This document shows positions 8,842 to 36,944 of a DNA stretch of 64,000 nt, piece by piece. The notes below the pieces were generated by a model. It was not told the DNA's origin, did no database searches, and worked only from the letters and a program-made list of their open reading frames with translations. Source of the DNA: Leucosporidium creatinivorum (taxonomy: Eukaryota > Basidiomycota > Microbotryomycetes > Leucosporidiales > Leucosporidiaceae). The translations under genes and the position numbers were made by a program. The stretch's first letter is position 1, and the number at the start of each line of letters is the position of its first letter. The DNA lies in NCBI GenBank assembly GCA_001600635.1, contig BCKL01000025.1, forward strand, positions 62,001 through 126,000, read 5' to 3'.

Positions 8842-9858
8842 TCAGGGACCACAAAGCGCTCCCGTACTCCAGAGCATCCAACGCGGCTCAGACCAGCCAA
8901 ACTTGAGTTCCTTGCTCGCCTTCTTCTCCTTTTCCTTGTCCCCGCCCCTCGCCGAGCCTCTGCCCCTCGCCCTGCGTCCAGCTGGCTTGGTGTCACAAGC
9001 GTCGGGGTTCGAGAGAGGAGGATGAGCGGGAAGAATGTCGCCAGTGGAGCGATCCGCGACATTGAGTCCGTAGGTCTTGACGAGCGAGGCGAAGCGGAGA
9101 CGAGCGTCGGAGGGCAAGTCGAACACGGCGGGGGAGATGTTAAAGACGGTGTTGTCGGAGGAGTGGGCGTGGTTGTGGTCGGCTTCGGACTCGACCTCGG
9201 GATAGGCCACGGTGTTGGCTCCGCGAAGAGGGAGGGAGATGGGCGCGAGCGAGTCGAAATCCCAGAACTGCACCTCGGGGTGGCTCGTCCAGACTCGGTC
9301 GACGGGCATGCAGAGTCCGTACTGGTCGAGGAGGATTTTGATGTTCTGTCGAGCTCGTCGTATCAGCGTGAAGGATGGCGCGACGTTCCCGCTCGGCCCC
9401 TTGGTGCTCACCTGGCGCATGCCGGGAGTGAGCCATTCGAGAACATCGGACTGGACCCCTACCCAGCAAAGCTCACAGTCGTAAGGCGGCGGACCCCACT
9501 CGTTCCATTCGTGCATGACGGTGGCCTCCGAATTCGGCCACGCAGCGAGACGGCTCATCTCACGATCCTCCTTCGAGCACTCGTCGCAGCGGAAGCCGGC
9601 AATTTCGTCGAGCTCAGCGTTGCGCACCTCAAGGAGTATGAGCTGCTTCTTGATCTTCCCCCACACCTCAGGCGGGATCATAACAAACGCATTGGCCCCT
9701 TCGCTGCCCACCTTGAGCGAGCCCGAGCGACGGCGGAGGAGGATGAGGTCGATAGCGAGGAAAGGGGAGCGAGTGCGGTGGTGGGCTGTAGCAGCGAAGG
9801 CGAGTGAAGCTGTAGTGACCCACAAGCCGTAGAGGAGGGTTGCTGTACTGGTGCACAT
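8842..9858 (-). CDS. Uncharacterised family protein fam-1 (A-type)
   Basis: I do not recognise this family. Two exons (9412-9858, 8842-9345) give 316 aa; the 66-bp intron is a multiple of three without a stop, so retention would add 22 residues. Visible parts: N-terminal YGLWVTTASLAFAATAH and AIDLILLRRR; PPEVWGKIK near residue 65, which resembles the start of an F-box helix; C91/C94 and C128/C131 around W118-x2-W121, a split four-cysteine set that could bind zinc; then ISPAVFDLPSD, a Lys/Glu-rich linker, and the tail SEPRWMLWS. No signal peptide or membrane segment is evident. Residues 1-59 differ from fam-4 at one position. It is divergent from fam-2 across 382 bp. Confidence 0.8.
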   Translation of the reverse strand: MCTSTATLLYGLWVTTASLAFAATAHHRTRSPFLAIDLILLRRRSGSLKVGSEGANAFVMIPPEVWGKIKKQLILLEVRNAELDEIAGFRCDECSKEDREMSRLAAWPNSEATVMHEWNEWGPPPYDCELCWVGVQSDVLEWLTPGMRQVSTKGPSGNVAPSFTLIRRARQNIKILLDQYGLCMPVDRVWTSHPEVQFWDFDSLAPISLPLRGANTVAYPEVESEADHNHAHSSDNTVFNISPAVFDLPSDARLRFASLVKTYGLNVADRSTGDILPAHPPLSNPDACDTKPAGRRARGRGSARGGDKEKEKKASKELKFGWSEPRWMLWSTGALCGP

Positions 9859-10002
9859 CGTCGAGGGCGCGGGGAGGGAGCTGAGTCGGGCGAGTCGAGA
9901 GCTTCGAAAGGCGAACGGAGAGCTGTAGGGCGGTAGGAGTGTGTGCTTTGGGTAACTGCTGAGGTCTGTAGCTGACTGGGCTGGTCTTGGAAGCTGCCCC
10001 GA

Positions 10003-10028
10003 AGTCGAAGTGAGTAGCGAGCGAGTGG
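10003..10028 (-). promoter_or_regulatory. A-type upstream element of fam-1
   Basis: A 26-bp block about 145 bp upstream of the fam-1 start, core CCACTCGCTCGCT then CTTCGACT. The same block lies 150-170 bp upstream of fam-4, fam-5 and fam-6. The binding factor is unknown. Confidence 0.5.
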
Positions 10029-10070
10029 TCGAAGGGGAAGAGAGGGCGAGCTCAGTTTCGCCTCTCTTCT

Positions 10071-10100
10071 TCCTGCCTCATCTTGCTCGTGTTAGCTTCG
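10071..10100 (+). promoter_or_regulatory. B-type upstream element of fam-2
   Basis: Block with core CCTGCCTCATCTTGCTCGT about 150 bp upstream of fam-2, repeated in the same place upstream of fam-3 (26180-26208, opposite strand). Confidence 0.45.
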
Positions 10101-10240
10101 CCTCAGCTTCGACTCGACTCCAGCTCAGAGAGAGGAGCAAAGCTCTACCGGAAGCTCAACAACCTACAGCTTTCGACTCTCCTTCCCTTCACCTCCCTCA
10201 TCTCGTTTCCCCTCTCAGCTCTTCGTCGCCCACTGGAGAG

Positions 10241-11220
10241 ATGTGTACCAGCAGCGTTACGCTCTTCTACGGTATATGGGTCAAGACGTGGTCGCTCGCC
10301 TTTGCTGCAGAAGCGCACGAGAAAGTACAGCCCGCCCTCCTTGCCATCAACCTCATCGTCGCTCGCCGACGCTTGGAAAAGCTCGCCGTCGAGGAGCAGG
10401 ACACCAAGACGACGGCGAGGGATCTGCCTGAGGAGATGTGGGAGCTAGTCAAGCAGGCTGTCATCGACGAGGCTATCCACCAGGAAGAAGAAGCGGCGTT
10501 GAAGAGGTATCGCTGCCCGAGCTGCCAATTCGCGCTCGGCGGGCCGTGGGAGGAAGGACTCGCTTGCAACCCCAGCTTCGCCCTCGATCGCGAGAGGTCA
10601 GTCGATAAATCCTGGACCGACTGGAACGATCCAAAGTGCGATGCCTGCTGGACATGGATCGAAGAGGGCTGGATGTCTTTTGATTGGGGCTGGGAGATGA
10701 GGTCGTTTAAGGTGGGTTGCATGGATCGGAGCTGGTAGGAGGGGGAGCTAACAGGTCTCTAACAGCTGATCGCAACCCTCCTCGCGAGCTCAGGCTTCGT
10801 CTGGCGACGTACGATACTTTTTGCGCCGAGCCGAGCCAGTGGCCTCGTTTCGACGAGCTGTCGGGACTCGCCCTCCCTCTGAGCACCCCCCCTTTCGAGA
10901 GAGTCGCTCCAGTAGAAGCCGACGTCGCCACTACCGACCACGATAGCTCGGTCAGCTCCGTCTTTCGACTCTCGACGCAGGTCCACGAGCTCCCCTCGAA
11001 CGCCGAGCTTCACTTCCGCCGCCTCATCTCAATCTACCGCCTCCAGGTCGTCGACCCAGCTACCAGCACAATCAATTCTCTCCTCTCGACCGACTCACTC
11101 GACCACAAGCAGTCGCCCAGCGGTCAGACCAGCTCCGAGGGCGAGAAGAAACCCGCCGAGACGTTCACAAAGTCCGAGCCACGTTGGATGCTATGCAGCA
11201 TGGCCGACGCCTGCACTTGA
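10241..11220 (+). CDS. Uncharacterised family protein fam-2 (B-type)
   Basis: B-type member, closest to fam-3 (shared WVKTxSLAFAAEAH, AVEEQDxKxTARDLPEExWELVKQ). Exon 1 is 10241-10711, with C92/C95, W125-x2-W128 and C133/C136. The standard acceptor gives a second exon from 10766 whose first codons (LIATLLASSGF) match the family, but that frame does not stay open. The conserved C-terminus (TKSEPRWMLCS) is in another frame, and 10766-11220 is not a multiple of three. Either the gene carries a frameshift near 10795-10810, or it splices from a donor 4 nt downstream (GTTGCA at 10716), which gives an open 309-aa protein with ten altered residues. It may be functional or a recent pseudogene. Confidence 0.65.
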
Positions 11221-11984
11221 TTTGACAGAGCAATGAACTGCGCGACGATGGGTGTGCTCTTACGCTGTAGCTCGAGCGGATGCAAGGCGCCTCGGCGGTT
11301 CCAAATTCGGCGATGATGGCCAGTTGAACTTGATGCCCTGCGCAGGCGGTAGGCGAGGGCGCTGGAGCTAGCTTTCGAGCTATATCATCTGCTCGCCTGG
11401 GTTGCGTAGTTCCATCCAACATCGACGCGAGCGGCGAGCAAAAGGGAGGCGGGGAGCTCGACTTGGATCTCGCTCATTTCAGCTCGTCTCCGCTCCGACT
11501 GGACGAGAGTATCAGGTCCCACTGGACGAGGAGCGCTGTGAGCGAGACAATCTTGCATCCACACCACAAGTGCACCAAACTCGCCCACGCTCAACCGGGG
11601 ACGAAAGGCGAGAAGCACTCGTCGCCGAGCACCGACGACCGGCCTCGTTGGCCAGGGCTTCCACTAGCTCACCGAGGTACTTGATGAGCTTAGTAGCATG
11701 CTTTTGCTCTCAGCGCTGCTTTAGTAGCTACCAAGCTCGGTACGGCAAGGGCGAGCTAGCTCGGTGAGGCAGCCATCGCCGAGCAGAAGGAGGAGAGGCT
11801 GTAGTGAGCGGGACGGGTGTTCAGATGGCTTCAAGAGCGTAGATAGTAAGTTGTTCACCCCCTTGGTAGATTCTACTCGACTATCAGAAAAGGAGTCTCA
11901 CGACTTCGACTCGCCCTTGCGCTCGTCGAGCTCAGGCTCTCTCCCTCACCTCGCTCGCTTCACCGCACTCGACTACAGGACAGG
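11221..11984. other. Intergenic region fam-2 to RET2
   Basis: About 760 bp holding the fam-2 3' region and the RET2 promoter. No protein-like frame, RNA gene or repeat was recognised. Confidence 0.4.
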
Positions 11985-14453
11985 ATGGTGCGTCAAGTCT
12001 CGTTGCAGCTCAGCAGCACCTCACTAACAGCTCTTCTCCCGCTCACACCTTACTTCCACCACGCGTCCCTCTCCTCATCTCGCTCAACTCGCTCGAGCAG
12101 GTCGTTCTCGCCGTTTCGATCGTCACAAAGGGAGGAAAACGTGAGTAGTAGACTCGTGCGCTACTGTTCTGTTCAGCTACAGCTGTGGCTAGAGCTGCAG
12201 AGTGACCGGAAGGCGGGAACGTGTCGAGCGCGTCGGAGGGAGCTCGCTGCAGAGGCTGGGTCTTGCTGGCAGGTGCTAGTAGGGCTGTCAGTCTAGGGCA
12301 GCGTCCTGCTGCCGAGCTCAGTCGTTTGAGCTGAAGCGCATACAGCGCACACGCGTTGACACGCAACGGGCGACGTCGAGGGCCTCGCTTGACACGCCGC
12401 CAGGCGCTTCGCGGCTGGATGAGAAGCTGGCGGAGGGCGTCTGTAGAGGTGCTCCTTGATGAGGTCTAGTCTGAGCGGCCGCAGCACAACGCCCGCCCAA
12501 ACCTCGGCAGCTAACTCGCCCTCTCCCCTCCCCTCGACGCCTACTCGAACAGCCCTCCTCTCGCGCCAATTCCTGGGCCTGCCTCGTTCGCGCCTTGAAT
12601 CCCTCCTCGCTTCCTTCCCCCGCCTCGTCTCGCCCACCTCAGAGCACACCGTCCTAGAAGCCTCGGGCGTTCGATTCGTCTACACCCCGCTCGAGGACCT
12701 CTACGTCCTCCTCATCACCAACACCCAATCCAACATCCTCCTTGACTTGTCCACCCTATCCCTCGTCACTCGCATCTCTACCGAATTGGGCTCGGGAGGA
12801 CGAGGAGGAGCGATCGGAGAGTTGGATGTTATGCGCGTGGCTTTCGAGATTCTGAGCGCTTGGGACGAGGTCATTAGCTTGGGATGGAGGGAGAATGTTA
12901 ACCTGCAGCAGGTCAGGAGTGTATTGGAGATGGAGAGTCACGAGGAGAAGATCCAGGAGATTATCGCTAGGGTACGTTGTCGCTTGCTCGTTCGAGTCGC
13001 GTTGAACGTGAGCTGACTCCCCGCACCCATACAGAACAAGGAGCACGAAGCCAAGGAGGAGCTCAAGCGCCGTGCCAAGCAGCTCGAAGTCCAACGCCGC
13101 GAGATGACCCGCCGAGGCCAGAACCCCTACTCCTCCAACTCGTCCGCCGGCTTCAACCCCAACTCGTCCTACACCCCCGCCTCTGGACCCTCCTACAACG
13201 ACCCTCCCGCTCGCTCCCCCTACTCTTCCTCGCAATTCGAGGACCGAGCTCCTGCGGCTAAGCCGTTCAAGACCAAGGGCATGCAGCTCGGAGCTAAGGG
13301 CAAGAAGAATGAGAGTGGATTGGCCGAGGCGCTGGGTGGGTTGAGTGTCGATGACGAGCCGTTGTTGGCGCATCATCAGCAGCAGAGGCAGCAGGAGGAG
13401 GTTTACGAGCAGCAGCAGCAGCATCAGCAGCCGGCGGCGGCGACGCCGACGAAGGATGTCAACCCTTTCGGCGAGGTCGAGCAGCAGGAGTGAGTCGACG
13501 CTACCTCATCCTCTCAATCAGTCAATCGCTAACCACTCTCCATCACTCGCAGCGTCCACCTCGTCGTCCGGGAGCATCTCTCCCTCACCCTCAACCGCGA
13601 CGGCGGCGTCTCCTCCCTCTCCCTCAAAGGAGACCTCGACCTTCGCATCTCCGACCCCGCCTACGCGACACTCATGATCAACCTCCCCCCGCCATCGAGC
13701 TACGCCAAGGGCAACGACTTGCAGTTCAAGACCCACCCGAACGTCGATAAGAACGCTTGGGCGAGTAAGGGAGAGGTGAGGTTGAAGGAGGGGAAGAAGG
13801 GCTTCCCGGTGGGACAAGGGTTGGGCGTATTGAAGTGGAGGTTGACGGGCACGGATGAGAGCGTCGTTCCCATTTCCAGTTCGTCCTTTCCTCTCCTTCT
13901 CCTCCCTCTCGGCTCTTGCTAACCTTCGCTTCTCTACAGTCAACTGCTGGCCCTCCGTCGACTCCGGAACCTCCACCATCTCCCTCGAATACGAGCTCAC
14001 GAACCCCTCCCTCTCGCTCCACAACGTCCTCATCTCCCTCTCCCTCCCCCCCGGCGCTCAGCCGACTATCACCGAATCCCCCGCGCACGGCGAGTACTCG
14101 CTCAACCCCGAGGGAAGGCTGGATTGGGTCATCCCCGAGGTTTCAGAAGACGCTGGGACCAGTAGTGGCAGCTTGGAGTTTGAGGTCGAGGGGGATGATG
14201 CCGATGCGTTCTTCCCGGTGGTGGTGGACTTCATTAGTCAAAAGGGACTGTGTGGTGTGGAGGTGGGCTGTTGTCTGTTGCTTTCGTGTCGATTGAGCGT
14301 CGCTGACCTCTCCCTCTCCTCGTCTACCCCTCCCCTCCCTCGGCAACCGACCCCCTCGAACAGGTCCTCGCCGTCACCAATTCGGCCGACTCGTCCCCCA
14401 TCGACTACTCGCTCGACTCGCTCGTCGACGTCGAGAGGTACGAGGTCGACTAA
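11985..14453 (+). CDS. RET2: Coatomer subunit delta (delta-COP)
   Basis: Delta-COP is part of the COPI coat that returns vesicles from Golgi to ER. Seven exons (11985-11987, 12101-12140, 12553-12971, 13035-13489, 13553-13878, 13940-14262, 14364-14453) join in frame to 551 aa, the usual length. Exon 1 is only the ATG; exon 2 then gives VVLAVSIVTKGGK and exon 3 PLLSRQF, the conserved delta-COP start. The N-terminal longin-like domain is followed by a Gln-rich linker (near 13370-13440) and the C-terminal mu-homology domain with PISINCWPS. Intron 2 is 412 bp. The ATG-only exon is strongly supported because translation continues exactly as in the family. Confidence 0.92.
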
Positions 14454-15013: not shown

Positions 15014-18000
15014 ATGAGCTACTCAGCAGCAGGTCCCGTAGCTGGGCCTTCGTCTTCTACCTCCGCTTCGGTTCATCAAGGCGCTCAGCAGCAGCCTCCG
15101 CCGACCCTCCTCGAGCCTATGCCTCGTCCCCGTCAGCAAGCTTGGGACCAGAAGACCAGCCGACCTGCAGTTGACTCGAATGGCCAACCGATCATGGAGC
15201 TCGCCAAGGGAAGGTGAGTCGCTGTGTCACTGCATAAGCGCTGGGCCAGACGCGAGCGGACCGCCTCGAGCGTCGCTGACGTGCAGCTGTGTAGTGAGAG
15301 GTGCAGCTCGGGCTCGGGGGAGCTAGAGCGAGTGCTGATGAACAATTTGGATGTTGCTACACTGCAGATTCGGTAGGATCGGTGGTCCCATCCTCCTCAA
15401 GGCCAACGTCTACTCCATTCACTTGAACGCACCGGCCAACACCGTTTGGTTCAAGTATCAAGTGAGTTTGCTCTGCTACAGGATCTACTCAGTGCATTGC
15501 TAACGCTTCTGCTCTCTCCTAGGTCACCATCCTGCCCGTCCGCCAGTCCACTGCCGCCAACCTCCCTCCTCCTCTCCCGCCCAAGTCGCTTCTGCGCCAG
15601 ATCTGGCAAGCTCTCGAGATGCGCGAGGCCGACCCCAACACTACTACCGGATTCTTCGCTGGACAAGCGCCTGTCTACGATGGGCGGAACGCGTGCTTCT
15701 CGGCTGGGCAGCTTCCTGGGACCATGTCGGTGAGTCGAGGTCCCAGAGAGCTGTGTACGAGCAGGACTAACGACATGGGCCTCGAAACAGACCACCATCG
15801 CCCTCCCAGGACAAGGAGCTCGTGGCTTCTCGATCAACGTGCGTCGGCTCGGCGCACATTCAAGCCATCGCCGAGCTGACCCTTTCCCGCCTCCGTCTCG
15901 CAGATCACCAACCCCATCGCCATCGGTCTCGATGAGCTCAAGAACTGGTACACGGGATCTCAGTACGCCGCTCAAGCCGACGCCAACGACGCCCTCGCCG
16001 CCCTCAATACCCTCTTCCACCACGGCCTCGCTCTCCTCTACCCCGCCAACAGCAAGACCATCTTCATCAACGATCCTCGTCGCCACCAGATCGGACCCGG
16101 TCACCAGCCTCATGCGCTTCATAAGGGCATCGAGCTTTGGAGGGGTTTCTTCGAGTCGGTGCGGACGTGCGAGAAGGGTCTCCTTGTCAACGTCGACACG
16201 ACGACGGGGGCCTTCGTCAAGTCGGGAAGTGCCGTCGACGTCGTGAAGGACTTTGTGCAAGCGCGTCAAGACCAACAGATCTACGCCAGCGCGCTTCGCT
16301 CGGCGGACCGGATCCAGGTCAACCGTCTTCTCAAGGGCGTGACGGTCAGGATCGATCTCGGTCAAGGTCAGCAGCCCAAGTACATGAAGGTCAGGCTCGG
16401 TTTGACGAGGGGATCTGCTTCGACCACTACGTTGGAGCTGCGAGATGCTCAGGACGGCTCGACGAGGAGCGTGACCGTCAAGGTGAGTTCAACTTTGGCT
16501 CAGTCGGCCCAGAAGCTCGAGCTGAGCTTTGGTCATCTACGAACAGGACTACTTCCGCATCAACTACGGCATCCCCGTCCGCAACCCCGACTTTCCCTGC
16601 ATGGAGGTCAAGGCTGGCGTCATGTACCCGCTGGAACTCTGCAACATCGAGCAGGTCCGTTGTCGTTCCCTCTCGCTTATCGACACTCGCACGCTTGCTG
16701 ACAACCTCTACATCGTACAGGGCACCAAGAGCAATCGTCGACTCAGCGCCGCCCAGCAAGTCGCAGCGACGGCCTTCCAGACTTTGAAGTGGGTCGAGAG
16801 ACTCTCGCCGAACTTATGCCGGACTTGCCTGGAAGCCTTCCTGCCTTCCAGACCTTCCGAGAGGTTTTCGACGATCAGTGCCTTCCGTGCGACCACCCTG
16901 CGCAGATACACCGAGCCCCGGTAGGTCCCGTCTCGCCGCTTCTTAGCTCGAGAAGCGCTGACCCTGCTTCGCCAAAACAGTCTCATCCCCTTCCAAGTCC
17001 ACCTCATGCCAAGGAACCCTACCATGCCCGCTCGTGTACTCGACCCTCCTTCGATCGCCTACTCGCAAGGTCGCCGCTCGGAACCGTCGCAAGGCCAGTG
17101 GAGGATGGGCAAGAACACGGATCGCTTCATGATGGGCGCTACGTGTCGCTCGGTCGCCGTCATCGTCTGCTCCGAGCTTTACGCCACTCAGACGGCCTCC
17201 TTCTTGCAAGCGTTCTGGAGCGGAGCGCGAGGACTCGGTGAGCTGCTCGCGACCCGGCGGAAGCGAGAGAAAGCTGACTCTTCTCTTCTTCGCAGGTATG
17301 ACGGTCCCTCAGAGGCCCATCGGTTCTCAACAGTTCCACGTGTGGGATGGTCGCGTCGCTACGGGGAGTTCGCCTACCGAGGAGGCTCAGCGTCAGATCC
17401 GAGACGCCATGAAGCTCGGCGGGCAGTTCTACGACGCTCGGCCCGAGCTCGTGTTCTACGTGACGGACAAGGCGAACGACAACATGTACAACTCCTGGAA
17501 GGCGGCTGGTGAGTCTTCGCTTCACTTCGACGTTCGAGGCCGGCGCTGACTTGCGTCGGTCGAGCAGGAGCTGCTATGGGAGTGGCTACTCAAACTTTGC
17601 AGAGGGACTGCTTGAGGAGGGGGACGGACTTCCAGTTGTTGATCAAGTGAGCTTTCTGGCACTACCACCTCGACCAGCAGCTGACTCGCTTTCATTGACA
17701 GCCTCAGCATGAAGGTCAAGTGACTTGATTTCGCTCGCCACTCGCCTCCTTCTGACGAGCTGACCAATTCTGTTCGACTGCAGCGGCAAGCTTGGCGGAC
17801 TCAACTTCTCGTTCGTCCCTGGGACTGCTGGAGGCAACAAGCGCGCTGGATGGCTTGACGCCAACGCTCCTCTGATCCTCGGTGAGGTCGTCGGTCGTGT
17901 GGGCGTTGCAAGTCAGTCAAAAGCTGACTTGCAACGACTACACAGGCGCCGACCTCACCCACGTCGACAACAAGCCTTCCATCGCCACCGTTATCGCCTC

Positions 18001-19528: not shown

Positions 19529-19750
19529 GGGGGTATAGTATAACGTGACCCGTGTACTTTTAGTATAGCTTGAGACTTGAGAATCGAGCTTGGAGGATAG
19601 GGATTCGGCGATAATCTGAGCTTCGGACCGAGCGAGAGTGGAAAGGGCGGTCGCGACTCTGCGCAGCTCGGAGAAGGGATATAAACCAAACGTTTCTGCT
19701 AGTCCTGCTCGTCTCTTTCTACCGACCGCCTCGCCGACTATCGCACCGAA

Positions 19751-25098: not shown

Positions 25099-26066
25099 TC
25101 AGCCCGGCTCGGAGCTCATACGAAGCATCCACCGAGGCTCGTCCTTTCGGAATCCTTTCTCGGGATATTCGGTGAAGACGGGAGCAGCAGGGCGGAAAGT
25201 GGAGGGTACAAGAGTGGTAGGAATGATCGTGCTACAACTGGGGTCCTCAACTTCCAGGCGGTACGTGGTGATGAGGCGGCGGAAACGATGCTCGGCGTTG
25301 GTAGGAAGGACGAGGGCTTGGGGATTGAAAGCAACCACGGTGCTGTCCTGCTCGGATAGCCTCAAGTTTGGGTAAAATCCATTGGCCCTCACTTGGGGGT
25401 AGATGCCGTTTTGGTTTGTCTTGGAAGCTTGTAAGGAAAGAGCGATAGGGAGGAGATGGTCGAGACTGTTCCAATACTCGCCCGAGCTGCAGTGGACTTC
25501 GAAGCTCGGTAGAGAAAGTCCGTGGCTGTTGAGAAGCTCTTTGATGCTCTAGTGGACAGGCGAAGTGGTCAGTGGTGCATAGCATTCTTGCTCGGCCGTG
25601 CTGAGCGGCTCACCGAATCCGAGTCCGACCAACGCTGCCGCTCAAGAGCCCCTTCGACGCACTCCTGGCAGGTTTGCTTGTTCCAACTCGTCCAAAGCTG
25701 TGACTCTGGCGTGGTAGTCAGAACACCAGGAGGGTAGTAAGCATCAATGTGCTTCTGAGGGAGCTCGCCCAACGTCCACGCGCTGTCATCGCATCGACAT
25801 TGCTTGATGGCGGCTTGCTCCTCATCGTGGATAGCTTCGTTGATGATCTCCTGCTTGACGAGCTCCCAAAGCTCCTCAGGGAGATCTCTCGCCGTCGCCT
25901 TTTTGTCTTGTTCCTCGACGGCGAGCTTTCCTGAGCGCCGACGAGCGATGATGAGGTTGATGGCGAGAACGGTAGGAAGAGTGACCTTGTGCGCTTCTGC
26001 GGCAAAGGCGAGCGAGTATGTCTTGACCCACAGGCCGTAGAAGAGGACGACCTCGCTTGAAGCCAT
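25099..26066 (-). CDS. Uncharacterised family protein fam-3 (B-type)
   Basis: Two exons (25614-26066, 25099-25548; 65-bp intron) give 300 aa. It is closest to fam-2. The start MASSEVVLFYGLWVKT lacks the MCxS seen in other members. Conserved parts: LAFAAEAH, INLIIARRR, ARDLPEELWELVKQ, W125-x2-W128, C133/C136, and the tail KDEPRWMLRMSSEPG. The first cysteine pair is altered (C90 and C92, spaced CxC), so metal binding may be changed or lost. The conserved ISPAVFDLP segment is here replaced by a looser NPQALVLPTNAEHRFRRLI. Function unknown. It is divergent from fam-4 across 348 bp. Confidence 0.8.
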
Positions 26067-26179
26067 TCGAGGTCGCTGAGCTCGGCTCTGGGAGGGTGGA
26101 GGTCGAGGGTCGTAGGCTGCTGAGCTTCTAGTCGAGCTTGCTTGTCTCCTTTTGAGCTGTAGTCGAGTCGATGCCGAGT

Positions 26180-26208
26180 CGAAGCTGAAACGAGCAAGAT
26201 GAGGCAGG
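26180..26208 (-). promoter_or_regulatory. B-type upstream element of fam-3
   Basis: Matches the fam-2 element at 10071-10100 (core CCTGCCTCATCTTGCTCGT), about 115-140 bp upstream of the fam-3 start. Confidence 0.45.
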
Positions 26209-26259
26209 AGGCAGAGAAGCGAATTCGAGCTCGTGAGCTCGTCGTCTCTCTCCCTTCAA

Positions 26260-26285
26260 CCACTCGCTCGCTTCTTACTTCGACT
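26260..26285 (+). promoter_or_regulatory. A-type upstream element of fam-4
   Basis: Core CCACTCGCTCGCTTCT followed by ACTTCGACT, 155 bp upstream of the fam-4 ATG. Same block as upstream of fam-1, fam-5 and fam-6. Confidence 0.5.
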
Positions 26286-26414
26286 TCGGAGCGGCTTCCT
26301 AGGACAGACTAGTCAGCTACAAAGCTCAGCAGCTACCCAAGGCACACTCTCCTACCGCCCTACAGCTCCTCACTCGCCTTTCGAAGCTCTCAAACGTCTC
26401 AGCTCACCTCGACG

Positions 26415-27430
26415 ATGTGCACCAGTACAGCGACTCTCCTCTACGGCCTATGGGTCACTACAGCTTCACTCACCTTCGCTGCTACCGCCCACCACCGCAC
26501 CCGCTCCCCCTTCCTCGCCATCGACCTTATCCTCCTCCGCCGTCGCTCGGGCTCGCTCAAGGTGGGCAGCGAAGGGGCCAATGCCTTTGTTTTGATGCCG
26601 CCCGAAGTGTGGGAGCAGGTGAAGCAGAGTCTGTTGTATATCGAAGCGCGCAACGCCGAGTTGAGAGAGCTGGCCGAGCTTCGCTGCCCCCAGTGCTCGC
26701 TGGACGACCTCGCTGCGAGCGCGCTCGAGCACCTCGCGGTGGGAGGCGGACATGGTCTCTTCAGGGTCGAGCATGGGTGGGACGATTGGAGCTCTCCCGA
26801 TTGCGACGGCTGCTGGGAGAATGTCTATGAGGACACGCTGGATTTGCTCACGACCGAGACTGTCGAGGTGAACGCCGAGTGGAAGAGATATATCGTCCTG
26901 CATAGCTGCAGCTGACGCGTCATCTTCCACAACAGAATATCAAGCAGCTTCTGAAGCCTTTCGGTCTCTGCATGCCCGTCCAGCGAGTCTGGAATAGCGA
27001 CCCTGGCTCCGAGTTTCACGATTTCGACGCTCTTTCGCCCATCTCGCTCCCTCTGCGCGGCACCAACAGCTCCGAATACCCTGAAGTCGAGTCGGAACAG
27101 GACCACGACTATGAGGGCTCCTCCTCCCACGCCGTCGGCAATATCTCGCCCGCCATCTTCGACCTCCCCTCCGACATCCACCTCCGCTTCGCCTCGCTCG
27201 TCAAGACCTACGCCCTCCAAGTGGTCGACCACTCGACTTATGAGATCCTCTCCTCTGAGGCTCCCCCTCTCAAGGCCAGAACGCCAGACGACGAGCGGAA
27301 AGCGGGCAAGCCCGAGGGAGCTGGTTCGGCGAAGGGAAAGGAGAAGAAGAAGAAAGACGAGAGGGAGCTCAAGTTCGGCCGTGTCGAGCCTCGCTGGATG
27401 CTTTGGAGTATCGGGGACACTTGCATGTAG
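26415..27430 (+). CDS. Uncharacterised family protein fam-4 (A-type)
   Basis: Two exons (26415-26867, 26936-27430; 68-bp intron) give 315 aa. It is closest to fam-1: residues 1-59 differ at one position, although the DNA shows several silent changes, so the protein sequence looks constrained. Parts: YGLWVTTASL, AIDLILLRRR, PPEVWEQVK, C91/C94, W122-x2-W125, C130/C133, a second exon starting NIKQLLKPFGLCMPV, ISPLPLRG-like and NISPAIFDLPSD segments, a Lys-rich linker (KGKEKKKKDE) and the tail EPRWMLWS. Function unknown; the four cysteines suggest a zinc-stabilised fold. No targeting signal seen. Confidence 0.82.
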
Positions 27431-27952
27431 TGAGGAAGCGGGGAGATAGCTCGAGCTTGTTGAAAGTGACTTCGCGCCAGCGCCGACTTCGGCGAAGGAG
27501 TCTAGCGAGTTGAGCAGCTCATTCCGCGACGGCACAGCTCGCCAGAGAGGATTCTTTACACCCCAAGATGCACTTCCCTGCTCTACAGCCCTCAATCGCT
27601 CGCTTTCGGCGCATACTAAAGTGTTTCCTGACTTCGGGTTGTAAACTCGCAGGTCTTTGCGACTTGAGACACGCTCTACCTTCCCGAAGAGGCAGGTGTG
27701 AGAGCGCTTGGGTCGCACTTTGACAGCGGGCGAGTTGCAGATAAGGAGCTGCTCGCTGAAGCCTTCGCCGAAGCTCGAGCTGGCTAGCTATCCGGCTCTC
27801 GCGATCTCTCAATGACTCGGCGTCCTCATTTGGTATCTACATATAGTCAAGAGCGCGGCGTTGCAGTCCTGTATGCTTACCTGCACGAGCACCGCCGCCC
27901 CAGCGCCGACCACGGCGTTCAGCTCAGCGGCGTGAGGAATGGAGGCGCTTAC
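27431..27952. other. Intergenic region fam-4 to inverted repeat 2
   Basis: About 520 bp of unassigned DNA between fam-4 and the outer edge of the left arm of inverted repeat 2. No gene or repeat recognised. Confidence 0.4.
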
Positions 27953-29368
27953 CTTGCCCGGTCATGCAGCTTGTAGTCATGAGTAGAAAGATAGCATGGC
28001 GGGCTGTTTGAGGGTTCGGCGTGATGTAGAGCACAGGGAAGGGAGGGTGAGAGCGAGTCAGCGAGAGCTTGGCAAGTACGAGTGCAGCTGGGGCTAAAGA
28101 CATCGGCCGGGCACATAAGGGGGCAGACTTCAAGCGCAAGCGAACGATGCGTTGACTTCCCTCACTCGAATGAACAGAGCTTGCCGTAGTTTTCCTCGGT
28201 CTCGTCCGCCGAGCGACTGAGCGCCTTGCTTCTCGCCTTGCTTGCTGTGCGAAGCGATAGCTGGTGGTAGTTGACTGGAGAAAAGCGCCCCGTGAATCGC
28301 TAAGCAGCCTTCCATCTCATTGGGAGCCGCCTTGCCTTGCAGGCTCTCACCCAGAGCAGTCAGCGAGCGCCGAAGCAACTCGTCTCGTCGTAGACAAAGC
28401 TGACAGCGACCAGTGGTAACTCAACGGATCTCCTCTACATAGCAGTAGAGCCTCACTGCGAGCTTGGGGCTTCCGAGGCTACCTTTGTCGTCCGAACGGG
28501 CGAGAGAGGCGACAGCCAACACACGCTCGGCCGAGTCTTGCTATTCAGGAGAGCGGTAGCCTGCCCACGGACCTCGGGACGATGATCGCAGCAGGCTTGT
28601 GTACATCGTACGGAGCCTGCTGCGAACCTCGAAGCCTCGCGCAGGCCTCGCTCTCCTCCGAGAGCGCGGATGCCTGTTCCGCCGAGGCCCAGTAACGCTG
28701 CATGGAGCAGTATGACCTCCTGGGTATCACGTAGAGCCCTTGTGTGGCCTCATAAGAGCCCACTGCGAACACCCTGCCGTGTTGAGCAGCGCCTCGACCG
28801 ATCCGAGGGAGCTCGGCCTGCTGCTGGCCGGCGAGGGGGTTGGGCCGATGCTGAGAGCCGAAGCCGCCCCGCCCCGACCAAACAGGGGAGCCTCAGTAGC
28901 ATGCCGCGCCCGCCCTTCTACACCTCGCTCTGCTCCTCAACCTGCTGCCTAAGCCCGAGGAGAAGGGGCGTGCCCTCTGCACTCGAGCAGCTGCTCCCAG
29001 TGAGCTCGGACTTGCCGAGGAAGCAGCCATCAGGCTCTGCACCTCGATATGAACCTTCCTCTGTACCCTCGCTCCCCTCAGCGCTCCCCCGCCTTGCCGC
29101 CCTCAGCTTCACGCGCCAGCGGACCGCATCCCTCCGCCGCTTCTGTAGCCCAGCAGCCCGCTCCAAAGACACACCAGCACCAGTCCGTCCCTCTACACCG
29201 CACTAGAAGACTCACATCCACCGCCGAGTTGTGGTGGTTGGCCAAGGCGATGACGGGCCCTTCCAGCGGGACATGCTCCTCGCCGTCAATGTGGATGCGC
29301 GAGAAGAAGGATTGTGTAGCGTATTGCGCCAATGAGCGCAACGAGGAATGGGTCGCTCCGAACGGCAT
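27953..29368 (-). pseudogene. Truncated copy of acyltransferase 5' end
   Basis: Exon 1 (29216-29368) encodes the same 51-residue start as the full gene at 38902 (MPFGATHSSLRSLAQYATQS... ending NHHNSAVD) with an intact GTGAGT donor. After an alignable 1.2-kb intron comes a relic of exon 2 (27953-28003, 51 nt versus 57 in the full gene) that has an internal stop. No later exons follow, so the HX4D motif is present but the FPEG motif and membrane segments are missing. It is a by-product of the inverted duplication. Exon 1 may still be transcribed from the MED7-side promoter. Confidence 0.85.
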
Positions 29369-29642
29369 CGCTGCTTGATGAGGTGCTGTTGCAGCTGGGT
29401 CCGAGCGAGCGCCGGTCGGCGGAGGTGGGGTGAGGAGCCCGCTGAGGGTGAGAGTGGTGAAGCTGTAGCCGAGTAGCGAAGTCCTGTAGTCGAGTCGGAG
29501 GTGAGAAGACGAGATGCAAAAAAGATGTAGGAGAGCAAAAGCTGAATCCTCTTTCGAGCTTGGACTTGCGATCGCTGCGAGGCGGCTCAGCTTCCTACGT
29601 CTCACTTGCTCGGCTTTCACATCGCATCTCGGCGGCTGTAGG
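29369..29642. promoter_or_regulatory. Shared MED7 / acyltransferase promoter, left copy
   Basis: 274 bp between the divergent MED7 ATG and the acyltransferase-relic ATG. It is identical to 38628-38901 in inverted orientation, so both MED7 copies should be driven alike. Confidence 0.65.
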
Positions 29643-30943
29643 ATGTCAGACTCGGGATCATCAGCAGCAGGTTCTCCTGCTCCTGCTCTGCTACAGCAAC
29701 AGCAACAGCCAGACTCAGCCGCTCCGCCTCCGCCAGCCGGCGACGAAGAGCAGCCAGCGGACGATTCGCTCGAGACGTCCTTCTTCCCTGCGCCGGCACC
29801 TTACTACACGCGCTACACCTCGGACAACCTGGCATTACCCCTCACTGCTTCGGTGCAGCTTCCCAATGGTCAAGAAAGCTCCAGAGCAGAGCTGGAACCG
29901 CCCAACATTGACTGGATTGTAGAGGATGGGAGCTACTCGGTGTTTGGGGAAACTTGGCCGGTGGAGGAGAAGTTACCGTCATTAGCAGAGATGGGAGTGC
30001 AGGAGCTGTTTGATCCTAGTGTCGGTGAGTTCTGAGCTCTTTCCCTTCTCCCATTCGTGTGTCGGCTGACCTTCTTATATACCATCCTACTGCAGACCGA
30101 TCTACCTCACTTCTTAACCTGCTTCGCACCCTCCTTCTCACCTACACCCAGCTCCTTACATCGCTTATGTCACCGCCGCCTTCCCTCACCTCCCTCCCGC
30201 CTGGCGCTCCGGAACCGCCTACAGACCCTGAGCGGCTAGTCGAGCATACTCGACTCATAGGAGTGAACATGCATCATCTGGTGAACGAGCTGAGGCCGGT
30301 GCAGGTGCGTCCCTCGACGCTAGCTCGGCGCTCGGCGCCCTTCCTCGGCCAAAGCTAACCTCTTGCCGCACTTCTCACCCGCTTCGTACAACTCTCCAAC
30401 CTCTTTCCTGATCCTGTACCTCGTCCGCTGCTCGGTCTACACCCAACAGGCCCGCGAGACCCTCAAGGCAATGATGCGTGCTCAGATTGAGCAGAGAAGG
30501 GCAAAAACGGCGGCCATCAAGCAGTGAGTGCAGATCTCTCTTCCCCTGTTTCAGCCACATCACATCGCCCTTCGATATCTCCTCTCTCCGCCTACCCCTT
30601 CGACTGCCTGCTGCCATCGCCTATCTCCGCCTACTCGTCCTTGAGCTCCCCCTCGGCGATCCCTTCGCTGACATTGGCTCGACCCTCTTCCCATCTCTCC
30701 CAACTCCTCCCCGTTCCTCGCCTCGCTTCACATCAACTCCCCTCGTCTCCCATCAACAGGAAGTGCGCCGAGCTCCAATCCACCCTCGCCAGCCTCAAGG
30801 CCGACCTGTCCCATTCGGCGGCTGGCGGCGAAGGAGGCGCAGCGGTGCAGCGACGAGGAGGAGCGCGAGCGGAGAGGAAGACTGGTGATCCGGAAAGGCT
30901 GGCGAGGGAGAAGCTGAGGGCTTTGGTGGATGGGCTGGAGTGA
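29643..30943 (+). CDS. MED7: Mediator subunit 7, copy 1
   Basis: Med7 is a core subunit of the Mediator middle module that links activators to RNA polymerase II. Four exons (29643-30024, 30096-30304, 30450-30523, 30760-30943) join to 282 aa. An N-terminal Gln/Pro-rich stretch is followed by FFPAPAPYYTRYTSDNL, the Med7 start motif, then the coiled-coil region with the signature GVNMHHLVNELRPVQ, and ARETLKAMMRAQIEQRRAK across the third splice. The C-terminus is predicted coiled and charged. This copy equals copy 2 at every base compared, introns included. It lacks a full acyltransferase partner, so it is the likely derived copy. Confidence 0.92.
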
Positions 30944-31142
30944 GGGAGCGAGTCGGCGGAGAGGCAGCGGAGCAGCGTTGGGAGACTGCTCGGGTGTAGT
31001 GAGATTGTGCAGTACCTCTGTTGTAGCACTATCAGCTGAGAAACCCTTTTCTGTAGCCTCAGACGTTCATACCGAGCCCCTGAAGCCCAAGCGAAGTTCG
31101 ACGACCACTCGCTTTCCGAGCTCGCCCTCTTTTGCTCTCCTA

Positions 31143-31168
31143 CCACTCGCTCGCTTCTCGCTTCGACT
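31143..31168 (+). promoter_or_regulatory. A-type upstream element of fam-5
   Basis: Core CCACTCGCTCGCTTCTCGCT, 169 bp upstream of the fam-5 ATG; the same block precedes fam-1, fam-4 and fam-6. Confidence 0.5.
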
Positions 31169-31311
31169 CTCGAAAAGGACTCGGTGGACAATCAGATCAC
31201 CTACAGGACTCGGCACCCACGTCGTGCAAGTTCGTCTACCTCGCTACAGCTCTCCCTGATCGCTCAAAGCTACAGCGCCTCCCTCGTACTACCCACGCGC
31301 TCGCCTCAACG

Positions 31312-32118
31312 ATGTGCTCGTCGACAGCCATCCTCATCTACGGGATCTGGGTCACGACAGCTTCTCTCGACATCGCAGCTACAGCCCACGCTCAAATTCA
31401 AACCATCTCCCGCGCCATCGACCTGATCCTCCTTCGCCGTCGTCTCGGAACGCTTCACGCCGCCAGCCAGAGCTCGGCGATTACTAGGGTCTCGGAGGAA
31501 GTGTGGGACATCATCAAAAAAGAGCTGCTACCTCTCGAGTTGCGCCGAGCCAAGCGCAAGGCCGCCAGCGAACACGACGACTACGACGAGCCCGACTTCT
31601 ACGCCGACAAGAAGGCGGTGAGTGGTGACCGAGGCTACTGCACAGGTCTAGTGCTGATCTCGCAGCTTCGTATTTAAACATAGGTCAAGGCGCTTCTCAC
31701 CTCCCACGGTCTCTGCGCCCCCTCCGTCAATAATTGGAGGAACGCCAGTACCAGCCGCTCGGCGATCGCCATCTCGCTTCCCTTCCGCACCACCAAATCC
31801 TCCTCTCGGGCCCAGACTTCCGCCGATAGCGACCACTGCGCGGGGAGCTACACCGAGCCCGCTCATGGCGTCAACACCCTCTCGCCCTCCCTCTTTGACC
31901 TCCCCTCCGACGCCGACCTTCGCTTCGCCGCGCTCGTGAAGGACTACAGGATCAAGGTCGTCAAGCTAGGCGGCGAGCAGATCGTCCACTCTCTTTCTCC
32001 CTTCAAGCTCCGAGAAAGCTGGGAGCGGAGTGAGGAAGTGAAGGCGACCGAGATGAAGGCGTCGGAGCCGCGCTGGATGATTTGGAATAGTCTCTTCCCT
32101 TGTTTCATGGGTGATTGA
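31312..32118 (+). CDS. Uncharacterised family protein fam-5 (short)
   Basis: Two exons (31312-31617, 31684-32118; 66-bp intron) give 246 aa, about 50-70 shorter than its relatives. It keeps the N-terminus (IYGIWVTTASLDIAATAH, AIDLILLRRR), SEEVWDIIKKEL, the second-exon start VKALLTSHGLC, SPSLFDLPSDADLRFAALVK and the tail SEPRWMIWN. The cysteine/tryptophan module is gone: after ELRRAKRKAASE there is only a short acidic stretch before the splice. Loss of just this module while both ends are conserved suggests the ends work without it, or that fam-5 acts as a competitor; both are guesses. It lies 3' of MED7 copy 1, same strand. Confidence 0.8.
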
Positions 32119-32339
32119 GGACGGACGAGGGAGGAAGAGCGAAAAGAATCTTGGGGGACAATAGCTTGAGCTTTGCTTGCTGTACAATAGCAGACAGGTC
32201 ACCTTGCTTCGGCGACTCGCGAGCGCACCGCGAGCAGCAGCGTAGAGTCCTCGAGCCGAGAGATAGCATATCAGCGCTACTCGTACGATCGTGAAGTACA
32301 CCAAGCTCCGCCTCAGCAACTAGCATGAGCCTTCCCATC

Positions 32340-33848
32340 TCACTTCGGCGCTCCAAACCTCGCCTCGGCCAGCGCCCTAAACTGCGCCATCGTCTCATCC
32401 TCCTTGCTCCTATACTGCTTCATCTTGTCGCTCATGACGGCTTGACGCTCTTCTTGGTATTGTGCTCGACTGCCGTGTTGAGCTCGGTGGTCACGGGCGG
32501 CGACCCTGTTCGGCGGGGGGCGGCGAGCGCGATGAGGGAGACGTAGAGGTGGTGTCGGAGGGTCGTGGTGACGAGAGCAGTGGGAGAAAGAGAAGCGTAG
32601 GAAGGCGAGGATCAAGTCAGTAAGCTATCGAAAGCAAGAGAGCAAAAGATGATCGCCGAACTCACATCGCCTTGAAGTCGCTCGTCCCTCCCGACCCCAT
32701 AAGCACATCGTCACTAACCTCCACCATCCCACCACTTTCCCTCGCCTCTCTCATCTCTCTCATACTGGCGCCCACCTCCCTCCTCTTCTCCATCTGCCGA
32801 TCCCGCCCCGTCGCCCGACTATCCCTCTCCTCCTCACGATCCTCCTTCCTTCCCTTCTTCTTCGCAGCCCTCTCTGCCTCGTGCGTAGAGTTCAGCAGCG
32901 AGTTTGTAGCATCACGAGTTTGTTGGAGAGCGGAGAGAGCGGAAGGAGGCATCGAAGGACCGAGAGCTGGACCTCGGGCGGCGGTCGGAAGGGAGGGGCC
33001 GACGGCGGTGGAGGAGGAAGAGGGAAGGGGACGAGTGCCCGTGTCGATAGACTTGCGGATGGAGGAGGCGTCGTCCAACTCGCGTTGGGTGGCTTTGGAG
33101 AAGGACCAGGAGTAGGCAGAGGAGAGCGAGGAGGAGAGCGAGGCGGAGGAGATGCCGGCGTAGTATTTAGCTGGCGCGTCGAAGATGGGTGAGACGTAGA
33201 TGTGCGCATTGAGAGAGTAGCGGGAGGGATGACGGGTAGGGATGAGAGGTAAACGAATGAGAGTCAGCTTCGAGCAATCACCTCGCCGAGCAGAGCTCCG
33301 CCACTCACGAGCTAGTTTCCCGCGGTTCCAAGCCTTGCAGAACTTGCGAAAGTATGCCCTGGCATCCTCAGACTTGAGCTGATCGAGTCGCTGTAGCGTA
33401 GAGAGGCGCAGGTCAGCTCTCGTTCTAGTTCGCTCAGTAGAGCTCGCGCTTCGAACTGCCGCGGTACAGCAGAGCATCAGACACACCTTCCCCTTCTCTT
33501 CGTCTAGCCACACCTTTAGCTCGTTACTCTTGAGGTAGACTGCCCTCATTCGAAGTCAGCGTTGTGGCTCTCAGCCGGCTCTCGCCAGAGCTACTCACAA
33601 TCCTCTGCATCAATCTCCTTGACCCCGGCAGGCGGTCCCCTCTCACTTTCATCTCCCTTCTCCCTATGCTTCCTGCTCTTCCTCTCCCGGTCCTCAGGCG
33701 AGCGCGAGCGGTGACGCCTGCTCGAGCTCGACTTGCGCTCGTCCTGCTTCCTATCATCACGGTGTCGAGATGAGCGCTCAGGCGAGCAAGAACGTGAGTC
33801 TCGGCGACGGCGGTCGTGGTGGCGTGACGAGCTGGAAGTCGAATCCAT
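32340..33848 (-). CDS. SCI1-like RS-rich nuclear protein
   Basis: The N-terminus (exon 1, 33599-33848) is rich in Arg/Ser/Asp/His (RHHDRRRRDSRS, RSRSPEDRERKSRKH), as in splicing-linked proteins. It is followed by the conserved block AEDFYLKSNELKVWLDEEKGK, then LKSEDARAYFRKFCKAWNRGKL and PKYYAGISSAS across short introns. This block matches plant style cell-cycle inhibitor 1 (SCI1) and its animal relatives. The middle is Ser/Ala-rich with GPSLP/GPSMP repeats. The last exon, joined from a donor at GCGAT, ends QEERQAVMSDKMKQYRSKED and AEARFGAPK. SCI1-type proteins are nuclear; their molecular role is poorly known. The start MDSTSSSSRHHD was preferred to an upstream in-frame ATG at 33920. Confidence 0.75.
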
Positions 33849-34053
33849 AGCGAAAGATGGGGAGGGAAGCGAAGGGTTGCTGGCGGCTTCGCTCGCAAGT
33901 CGTCTCAGAAGTAAGGTCAAATATTGGGTATCATTCAGAGATTGGTGTCAACAGCTCGGCGCCGACTCTGCCTCCGCTCCTGCTCCATCGCTGCCCTGTC
34001 CAATTCCAGCTGCAGCTCCTCCTCCATCCTCAAGCCTCATTTCGACCACCGCT

Positions 34054-35507
34054 CTAGGCGAGGGTAGCCTTGGACCTGCTCCTAGTGATCCGGGAGGGAG
34101 TCTCGGGGCCCGAGGCGTTTCCCTGAGCGGCCTCAATCTTGGCCTTGGTAGCGGAAGAGATCTGATGTCGGCAGTTTGATAACGGTGGGGAGGATGGGGG
34201 GGGGGCGTCAAGTTGGAGGGAACAGGTCAGCGAACGAAAGGCGAGCCGATACGAGGAAAGACAGCGCACCTTCTTGCTGCCAGGGTTGACGAGGTGGCGG
34301 TTGCGCTGCTTGTGCATGTGCGACATCATGATAAAGAGGGCTAGTAAGAAGTGCAGTGGTCAGTATAACTCAGCGCTCTCCTCGATACAGTTCGGCGCTG
34401 GAGCTCCGACTCACCTGGGGGCCAGAAAGCGGCGGTGGCGAGGGTTCCGACGTATCCAAGGATGCCAAAGTGCTGCTGGGCGTAGCTGTTGTACGAGGAA
34501 ACGTTAGAAGGGACTCGAAACGGGGCGGGAGGGAGAGGGAGCCTCACGCGGCCGAGCGGAAGATGAGGTAGCACTCGGATCCGGCGCCGAGAGGGTACAT
34601 GAGGTAAAAGGTGGAGTAGCTGCGACACTCAAAGACTCGTCAGTAGCTGCAGAGACGAAGGATGGAGGAGCAGAGCCTCACCGAAGCCACTCGAGAACGG
34701 GAACCTTGACGTTGACGAGGCTAGCGACGTAGTGAAGGTACCTCACGACTTCGGTGAAGGACCAGGCGAAGACCATGGAGATGTAGACGGGCGAAGCGGC
34801 GACCTATTGAGCAGCAATCGACTGGTCAGCTACCCCTTCTCCGGCGCTCTGGAAAAGAAGCGAAAGCGCACCTGGGGGTAGAAGGGGCAGATGTACCAGA
34901 CGACCAGGATACGGGAAGCGATCTGAGCGGCGGTAGTGAGGATTCCACTGCGACTGTTGAAGGACATTCGTAGAGCCCAAAACAAAGGCATGAGCACGCT
35001 TCTGTCTGTAGCTGAAGCGCCGGGAAGCACTTACACGAGACCGAGCGCCGAGTGGACAGCTTCGAGGAGAGCAAACGTCTGGACCCACTTGACGACATCG
35101 CCGAAGCTGGAGCCGAGAGGAGCGCGAGCGAGGAGGGGAGAGAAGGGGGCAGGTCGTCATTAGCTGTTGAGCTTCGCAAGCCCAGCGCCGCTCTGTACAG
35201 AGCAGCAGCATTGTCCTACACCTCAGTAGAACACCGCGACCGTTCAAACTCACTCGGAGTAGCCCGTCCTGCCCCTTCCCAGCAGCTTCTCGCCGACCGT
35301 CTCCAATCCGACCACCGCCTTGATTCCTCCGTCTCCCGCACCAGTGAGCATGTGAGCGACAAGCCTGAAGAGCACGTAAGCCCATCCGAGCGCCGAGGCA
35401 GCGTTGTAGGCGATGAGGTAGAAGTTCTTCGGCGAGCGGCGAGCGGCGCGCGCTTTGGCCAGCTCGCGCTGGTGTTGCGAGGGCTTCTTCTTGGGCGTGG
35501 CGGGCAT
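34054..35507 (-). CDS. PHS1: 3-hydroxyacyl-CoA dehydratase (HACD)
   Basis: Phs1 carries out the third step of very-long-chain fatty-acid elongation in the ER membrane, removing water from 3-hydroxyacyl-CoA. Seven or so exons. Seen in order: a basic N-terminus (MPATPKKKPSQHQREL), NFYLIAYNAASALGWAYVLFR, TFALLEAVHSALGLVRS, ILTTAAQIASRILVVWYI, VFAWSFTEVVRYLHYV, then WLRYSTFYLLYPLGAGSE, which holds the Tyr and Glu (YPLGAGSE, seven apart) that form the Phs1 active site. The C-terminus is basic and Ser/Thr-rich (SRITRSRSKATLA). It lies in the spacer of inverted repeat 2, so it is single-copy here. Confidence 0.9.
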
Positions 35508-35988
35508 TGTGTGCTGTAGTCGATGTACCGAGAGGTCGAGAAGCCGGAGAAAGGTGCGCTGGCCGAGATGAGAAGTTGTGGGGGGAGGAAGAAGGGGAGC
35601 GAGCTGGATGAAAGTCGATCAAGGCCGAAGGGCTCGGCGGAGGGTCTGTAGCTGAATCGTTCAGCTGAATGCTGCAGTATATCGACAGTGCTCAGCGACG
35701 TCCTGCCGAGTGTCTGCCCTGCGCTGCGAGTCTAGAGGCTGCCCCTCGCCCTTCGCCGAGCAGTTTCGCCAGTTTCGCTCTCTGTTTCGCTTCTCTCCTC
35801 GTATTCGGTAGTGCTAAAGGTCTGAGGGAGGAGCTCTTCTCGTCTCCAGTAGCAACTCTCGAGCACCCCTTGCTGCTGCTCCACCGACAAGATGGAAAAA
35901 GCAAGCTCGGCGATCTCTTCATTGCACCCGCCAGCAAGCAAGCGTTCAGCTTATCCCTCCACGCCCTCACTAGATCCTCCCCCAAGTT
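35508..35988. other. PHS1 promoter / fam-6 3' region
   Basis: 481 bp between the PHS1 start and the fam-6 stop. No gene recognised. Confidence 0.4.
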
Positions 35989-36944
35989 TTAACGTCCACG
36001 GCAGGGTACGACTCGACTCCAAAGCATCCAGCGCGGCTGGATCGGCGCCGCCTTCGCCTCCTTCGGCGCTGGCTCCTTCGTCTGTTGCTCGTCCGCTTCG
36101 AGCTTGAGCGAGGCGAGGAGGGCTGGGTCGAAGGGCTCAAGAGAAGGGATAAGGTCGTCTCCCTCCTTCGCGGCCACTTGGAGCTTCCACTCCCTCACGA
36201 GCGCAGCGAAGCGACGGCCGGCGCCGGAGGGTACGTCGAACACGGCGGGGGAGATGCTGGTGAGTGCGTGAGCGGGTACGGATCCCCTGAAGGGTTGGCC
36301 GCGTAGGATGTGATCCAGGTCTGCGCGAGTTGGAGGGGGGAGCCTGGACTTGGTGGTGTGGAAAGGAAGAGAGATGGGCACCGCCGAATGGAAGTCGCGC
36401 AATTCGCCAAAGTCCGACGCCCAAGCGAAGTCGTTCGGCGTGCAGAGGCCGTAAGAGGCGAGGAGTCGGGTCGTCTGCATGTGAGCGGTATCACCTCCGC
36501 CCAGCGAGGAAGCATCCAAATGCCTGAATGCCCGACGTTGATCCAGCAGGAATCGCACTTAGGCTCCTCCCACGAGTTCCAATTGTGCTCGAACTGCTTG
36601 TCTAGCGAGGCAATATCCTCCTTCAGCTTCCCTTCGGCGATGGCGCGCCGCCAATCTTCCTCCTCGCAATCCTCGCAGCGAAAGTAGTCGACAGCCTCGC
36701 GCTCTGCTGCGAGCAGCTCGGCGAGGATCAGCTCCTCCTTGATGGTATCCCATACATCCTTCGGCAGCTCGTCAACGCCTGTACGGTTCTCCTCCACCCT
36801 GAGCGTTTCCAGACGGCGACGAAGGAGGATGAGATCGATGGCTCGGAAGACGGGCAGGGTGCTGGTGTAAGCCGCAGCAGCGAAGTGAAGAGATGAAGTG
36901 GTGACCCAGATGCCGTAGATCAGAGTAGCTGTACTGTGGCACAT
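35989..36944 (-). CDS. Uncharacterised family protein fam-6 (A-type)
   Basis: N-terminal exon: MCHSTATLIYGIWVTTSSL, AIDLILLRRR, LPKDVWDTIKEEL, C90/C93, W122-x2-W125, C130/C133. The second exon (35989-36474) starts TTRLLASYGLC and carries SISPAVFDVPSG and the tail IQPRWMLWS. At the position where relatives have a 54-68 bp intron, only 20 bp (36475-36494) separate the aligned exons, too short to splice and not a multiple of three. A GT 42 bp further upstream (exon end 36537) gives a normal 62-bp intron in phase, and 297 aa ending exon 1 at SCWIN. That is the preferred model. The gene lies 3' of MED7 copy 2. Confidence 0.75.

Follow-up and report, generated by a model that had tools for sequence, protein, structure and literature searches.

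The window examined here is a stretch of 64,000 nucleotides (nt) from Leucosporidium creatinivorum, positions 62001-126000 of contig BCKL01000025.1 (C25:62001-126000), and it carries six related genes, fam-1 to fam-6, at the places where a preliminary description of the sequence had put them. The six belong to a larger family: at least 29 distinct copies were found on C25 (440,178 bp), between 41 and 389 kb, with six of these in the window, which contradicts the six-member family of that description. The same contig carries a pheromone precursor gene and a pheromone receptor gene at its right end and is very likely the pheromone/receptor (P/R) mating-type contig. The window genes are listed below, in positions of the window.

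8842-9858, minus strand: fam-1 (copy 4); exon 1 9858-9412, exon 2 9345-8842; 316 amino acids; all four cysteines
10241-11220, plus strand: fam-2 (copy 5); exon 1 10241-10711 intact, with four cysteines
25099-26066, minus strand: fam-3 (copy 6); exon 1 26066-25614, intron of 65 nt, exon 2 25548-25099; 300 amino acids
26415-27430, plus strand: fam-4 (copy 7); exon 1 26415-26867, intron of 68 nt, exon 2 26936-27430; 315 amino acids; four cysteines
31312-32118, plus strand: fam-5 (copy 8); 246 amino acids; intron of 66 nt; whole cysteine module lost
35989-36944, minus strand: fam-6 (copy 9); four cysteines; doubtful splice junction

All six window genes have the N-terminal motif, the LPxEVW-like segment, and the C-terminal PRWM[LI] that had been reported for them. 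Two CxxC pairs 33 to 37 residues apart, with a WxxW, had also been ascribed to every member; this holds for fam-1, fam-2, fam-4, and fam-6 (gaps of 33, 37, 35, and 36 residues) but not for fam-5, or for fam-3, where CDDS stands in place of CxxC and the first cysteine pair is short of one cysteine. Likewise, the claim of one intron at a fixed place was right as to the position, which is common to the genes (9411-9346 in fam-1, 66 nt, GTGAGC..GACAG), but the junctions of fam-6 and fam-2 are doubtful. Exon 2 of fam-2 is out of frame at the expected acceptor, and the intron place of fam-6 offers just a 20-nt GT..AG stretch, or 62 nt with a poor donor. Both genes are therefore possibly damaged, and fam-2 may be a pseudogene.

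The genome searched comprises 27.7 Mb in 63 contigs and represents one haplotype. Three queries, fam-1, fam-3, and the distant copy 29, stood for three clades of the family, and the copy counts are lower bounds. Paralogues were matched with expect values (E) down to 7e-57, far past chance, and the copies are scattered over 350 kb of C25 in mixed orientation. A single remnant was found off this contig, at C12:508926-509057, with E 9e-6 for the fam-1 query, 0.02 for fam-3, and no match for copy 29. It has the family N-terminus in a broken frame and a PWWMLW-like end in the same stretch, and it was the sole match outside C25 below E 0.1; a match on C5 at E 0.14 was taken as chance. In contrast, F-box genes, which are also multicopy, gave 32 PF00646 matches across 16 contigs and none on C25. 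A binomial value for the clustering of the family was discarded, since its copies are not independent of one another.

Open spliced models of 246-334 amino acids were obtained for 22 of the 29 copies. In twenty of these a GT..AG intron, 52-90 nt long, occupies the common place, a few with GTC donors; the remaining two are fam-6, with its 20 nt, and copy 18, whose junction has no AG acceptor as modelled. Exon 1 is open in copies 5, 14, and 26, for which no clean exon 2 model was obtained, and copies 1, 20, 24, and 27 are broken or truncated. The counts and trees given below are based on 25 modelled copies, namely the 22 open models and the three with exon 1 only, leaving out the four broken copies and the C12 remnant. 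Prokaryote and virus collections, scanned with one peptide pattern at a time, held no relative, as expected.

The right end of C25 (C25:433303-440113) carries RPL18ae, STE3, and a two-repeat pheromone precursor. STE3 (C25:435951-436551) is the only match in the genome at E<=0.001, and the precursor (C25:439922-440113), beyond which the contig stops after 65 bases, is likewise the sole place matched. Within the precursor a 16-residue repeat occurs twice, and its second copy finishes with CTIA followed by a stop, which is how red-yeast lipopeptide pheromones are laid out. Frames within 426-440 kb of the contig are, by our own naming, presumably RPL18ae and ASF1-like, and the RPL18ae piece used as a query found no second place in the genome. 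Receptor and pheromone genes on one contig, by which we recognise a P/R region, were thus both found on C25, and since each is the sole match in the genome, the family and the P/R mating-type locus are linked. In its treatment of the MAT scaffolds of the red yeast Sporidiobolus salmonicolor, the cited part of PMC2916851 includes RibL18ae among the genes discussed. Homeobox_KN was matched just once in the genome, at C24:378905-379027, on a contig other than that of STE3; this may be the homeodomain (HD) mating locus. Nowhere in the genome is there an exact (TTAGGG)4, and the left end of C25, of which 600 bases were inspected, has none either. The ACAAAG motif and its relatives, which we assume to be a pheromone-response-like promoter motif, were observed in just two of 25 upstream regions, those of the neighbours fam-3 and fam-4.

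In the tree of the 25 modelled copies, clade A comprises fam-1, fam-4, and copy 3, with fam-5 and fam-6 beside it; clade B comprises fam-2, fam-3, and seven others; and clade C comprises three copies at 342-389 kb. Six further copies at 272-385 kb (A') form a clade in the exon-1 tree (88/94), of which the full-length tree unites four; copies 17 and 19 could not be placed, and several of the nodes have weak support. We found that silent-site divergence (pS) within clades is uneven along the genes, with a mean of 0.44 in the first ~50 codons vs 0.61 elsewhere, and that the 5' value was the lower one in 43 of 50 pairs (3/3 in A, 15/15 in A', and 24/28 in B). Between clades, the corresponding values were 0.60 and 0.64, the 5' part being lower in 162 of 250 pairs, and that both parts are near saturation argues against a general constraint on silent sites. 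BLASTN among the family regions showed blocks common to many pairs that run from upstream DNA to mostly codons 65-95. Upstream they extend for ~150-180 bp in several of the A' pairs, where they are 81-88% identical; among B pairs they extend for more than 370 bp in some and not at all in others. This mosaic probably reflects repeated non-allelic conversion favouring the promoter and the N-terminus.

The family is under purifying constraint on average: the ratio of nonsynonymous to synonymous divergence (dN/dS) was 0.25-0.62 in whole comparisons of 16 chosen pairs, three of these with exon 1 only, values that are rough because pS is near saturation. Few parts of the protein vary as much as the cysteine loop, with nonsynonymous divergence (pN) of 0.48-0.62 in loop windows (one window with 5 pairs), but pS is too high for positive selection to be claimed. 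The preliminary description had proposed an expansion of the kind seen for proteins in conflict or recognition. An expanded, fast-diverging family is what we observed; a conflict or recognition role fits it, and this falls short of proof.

Duplication in blocks, often inverted, is visible within the window at the following places.

9859-10240: intergenic DNA of the divergent genes fam-1 and fam-2, 382 bp, much of which recurs inverted between fam-3 and fam-4
26067-26414: intergenic DNA of the divergent genes fam-3 and fam-4, 348 bp
27947-31194, plus strand: left arm of an inverted repeat, its inner edge just ahead of the fam-5 start
37070-40323, minus strand: right arm of the inverted repeat, its inner edge just ahead of the fam-6 start
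29141-30963: core of the left arm, 1,823 nt, 100% identical to its partner and holding MED7
37307-39129: partner of the core in the right arm
29775-30316, plus strand: MED7 (PF05983), left-arm copy
37954-38495, minus strand: MED7, partner copy

The fam-1/fam-2 and fam-3/fam-4 regions represent a single divergent block, together with its intergenic DNA, present twice in opposite orientation. With copies 1/2 there are three such divergent A-B pairs, and the intergenic DNA common to them makes them look like a single duplicated block. The pairing was considered as a two-component module and not adopted as functional, because other copies are tandem, convergent, or single. The repeat arms are 90.8% identical over 3,282 aligned columns. 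Outward of the core the identity is 68-92%; inward it is 89-91% for ~300 nt and then 47-75% across fam-5/fam-6. The two MED7 copies are the sole MED7 places matched in the genome. Recent conversion from arm to arm would be the simplest account of the identical core, assembly error being the alternative.

No significant match was obtained in Pfam (42 rows from the 25 copies), NCBIfam (exon 1 of the 25 copies), or PDB (exon-1 and exon-2 profiles), in keeping with the earlier impression that this is not a described family, and no title or abstract beginning in the literature searched described it. CcmH, CENP-T, and other Pfam names at E 0.03-0.8, in 1-2 of the 42 rows each, were taken as chance, as were the NCBIfam HVO_A0556 zinc finger (one row, E 0.014) and PRK10174 (one row, E 0.038). 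The PDB matches to eL34 (E 0.25, the best) and SEC20 (E 0.43) were not significant. Both cysteine pairs are present in 23 of the 25 modelled copies, the exceptions being fam-5, in which both pairs are gone, and fam-3, which departs in one residue; WxxW is found in 20 of those 23, and the LPxEVW-like motif in all 25. That the pairs are so widely kept and were lost as a unit in fam-5 fits a single metal site, and the proteins may bind zinc through the four-cysteine module. Zinc-ribbon profiles gave no significant match, with Zn_ribbon_8 in one row at E 0.3 and HVO_A0556 and eL34 as above. At the N-terminus, G11, W13, L19, and A25 are invariant in 25/25 copies, and the best 19-residue hydropathy means are moderate (0.86-1.57 across the 25, the N-terminus only being scanned). 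In our judgement this part is more probably a buried helix or a partner surface than a leader. We also observed cysteine as the penultimate residue in 11 of the 22 full models, often as PCx.

Ordinary genes are interspersed with the family: Pfam matches, such as MED7, aldehyde dehydrogenase, and Sec2p, were found in 5 of 10 window frames scanned. One reading frame, at 16159-16698, matched ArgoL1 at E 0.00028, slightly below the curated cut-off, and may belong to an Argonaute gene close to the family.

Judged on sequence, it is on balance probable that these genes form an ampliconic family that undergoes gene conversion, is linked to the mating locus, and encodes intracellular proteins resembling zinc ribbons. 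The family is confined, one remnant apart, to the contig with the P/R mating locus, where its copies multiplied as blocks, often inverted. Many of the genes are mosaics. Their 5' part, made up of upstream DNA of variable length together with about 65-95 initial codons, which encode the conserved N-terminus and the LPxEVW helix, would have been homogenised among members of a clade by non-allelic gene conversion. The remainder of the gene would be older and fast-diverging, with the split four-cysteine zinc-ribbon-like module, the variable loop, and a C-terminal part ending in PRWMLW. We infer that the proteins most likely serve as intracellular zinc-ribbon adaptors or regulators of the sexual phase, in which the conserved N-terminus would contact a shared partner and the variable loop of the cysteine module one that differs.

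Several observations weigh against this reading. The nearest copy lies 47 kb from STE3 and the window copies 337-365 kb from it, so that the copies may fall outside any non-recombining region. RPL6, which adjoins STE3.A2 in R. babjevae according to the cited part of PMC2916851, sits on C9 in the present genome. There is no GC depletion on C25, at 59.6% vs 59.6% in a sample of 20 x 1 kb of other contigs, and hence nothing that points to long-suppressed recombination; P/R loci of Cryptococcus are reported in the cited part of PMC12510652 to have lost GC, a pattern absent here. This GC test is weak, because third-position GC is no different on the Microbotryum mating-type chromosome either, as given in the cited part of PMC4469406. 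The 5' pattern is not universal, being seen in 1/3 pairs of clade C and 0/1 for fam-5/fam-6, and some pairs have 3' DNA in common instead or as well (last-part pS of 0.21 in copies 12/15; exon-2 blocks), so exchange is not confined to the 5' end. The roughness of dN/dS counts here too. Finally, two AlphaFold models made with window sequences as sole input gave no confident fold, with pLDDT of 41 and 44, too poor to judge the metal site.

It is possible, though we hold it doubtful, that local duplication produced an ordinary family whose role is vegetative and whose linkage to the mating genes is only a coincidence of where its founder lay. Local duplication by itself holds copies on one chromosome, and the distance to STE3, the unlowered GC, and the ordinary genes among the copies all sit well with it. 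Yet the copies spread over 350 kb in mixed orientation with one remnant elsewhere, and an inverted repeat whose core is fully identical, together with homogenised 5' ends, recalls sex-linked ampliconic regions. Improbable, in our view, is a selfish, drive-like family that biases transmission in the manner of the wtf genes of Schizosaccharomyces pombe. It would account for many copies on one contig, intact beside broken members, and for signs of non-allelic exchange that include upstream DNA; such conversion, promoters included, is reported for wtf in the cited part of PMC6526906. None of the 25 copies, however, has a strongly hydrophobic span in the N-terminus, the part scanned.

Another reading is that the family encodes secreted cysteine-containing proteins. 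In many copies an AxA motif comes after a hydrophobic stretch, which could be a signal peptide, and the cited part of PMC4469406 describes an enrichment of cysteine-rich small secreted proteins on the mating-type chromosome of Microbotryum. The four invariant residues would be unusual for a cleaved leader, though, the hydropathy values are low, and in clade B the stretch contains a lysine, which leaves secretion slightly less probable still than drive. Least likely are F-box-type substrate adaptors of an SCF ubiquitin ligase. LPEEVWELVK is similar by eye to an F-box start, and the preliminary description had compared the segment with one, as unproven. Against this, no F-box family was among the Pfam matches of the 42 rows at E<=1 (HMMER filters drop most above ~0.1), the 32 genome matches to PF00646 avoid C25 altogether, and the low-confidence AlphaFold models show one long helix after the motif.

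What raises the family of putative zinc-ribbon-like proteins above routine expansion is its confinement to the P/R contig, together with the silent-site mosaic and the inverted blocks. By analogy, the amplified gene families that animal sex chromosomes carry may have their fungal equivalent in it. A bolder version, which we regard as unlikely, would make it a mating-locus-linked recognition or drive system new to fungi: ~29 paralogues with a gene-converted front, a hypervariable cysteine module, and inverted blocks like those of Y-linked ampliconic genes would differ in content by mating type and influence compatibility, post-fusion behaviour, or spore survival. If the linkage is functional in cause, C25 would hold an ampliconic family on a fungal mating-type chromosome, beside a repeat that keeps the sole two MED7 matches identical, and the question of why sex chromosomes collect amplified, gene-converting families would become testable in a fungus. 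A protein family without an entry in the libraries searched would also be named.

Among known systems, the MVLG_04105 family of Microbotryum lychnidis-dioicae resembles the present one in being cysteine-bearing, without Pfam domains, and with adjacent members on a basidiomycete mating-type chromosome; by its description in the cited part of PMC4469406 it differs in having four members that are small and predicted to be secreted. Two-CxxC zinc ribbons such as ribosomal protein eL34 share the order of CxxC, long loop, and CxxC, whereas the match to eL34 was not significant and is limited to the cysteine region. Mammalian Y chromosomes carry ampliconic genes and palindromes, and C25 is similar in that a multicopy family lies on a sex-determining contig and the arms of an inverted repeat have a core that is fully identical; unlike there, the identical core holds MED7 and not the family, and the GC of C25 gives no sign of suppressed recombination. 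The wtf meiotic drivers, as described in the cited part of PMC6526906, come close in being a large intron-containing family concentrated on one chromosome, with conversion that includes promoters and with intact and broken members. A sequence match between the two families would not be expected. The present family differs from them in having no strongly hydrophobic N-terminal span, and linkage to a mating locus is peculiar to it.

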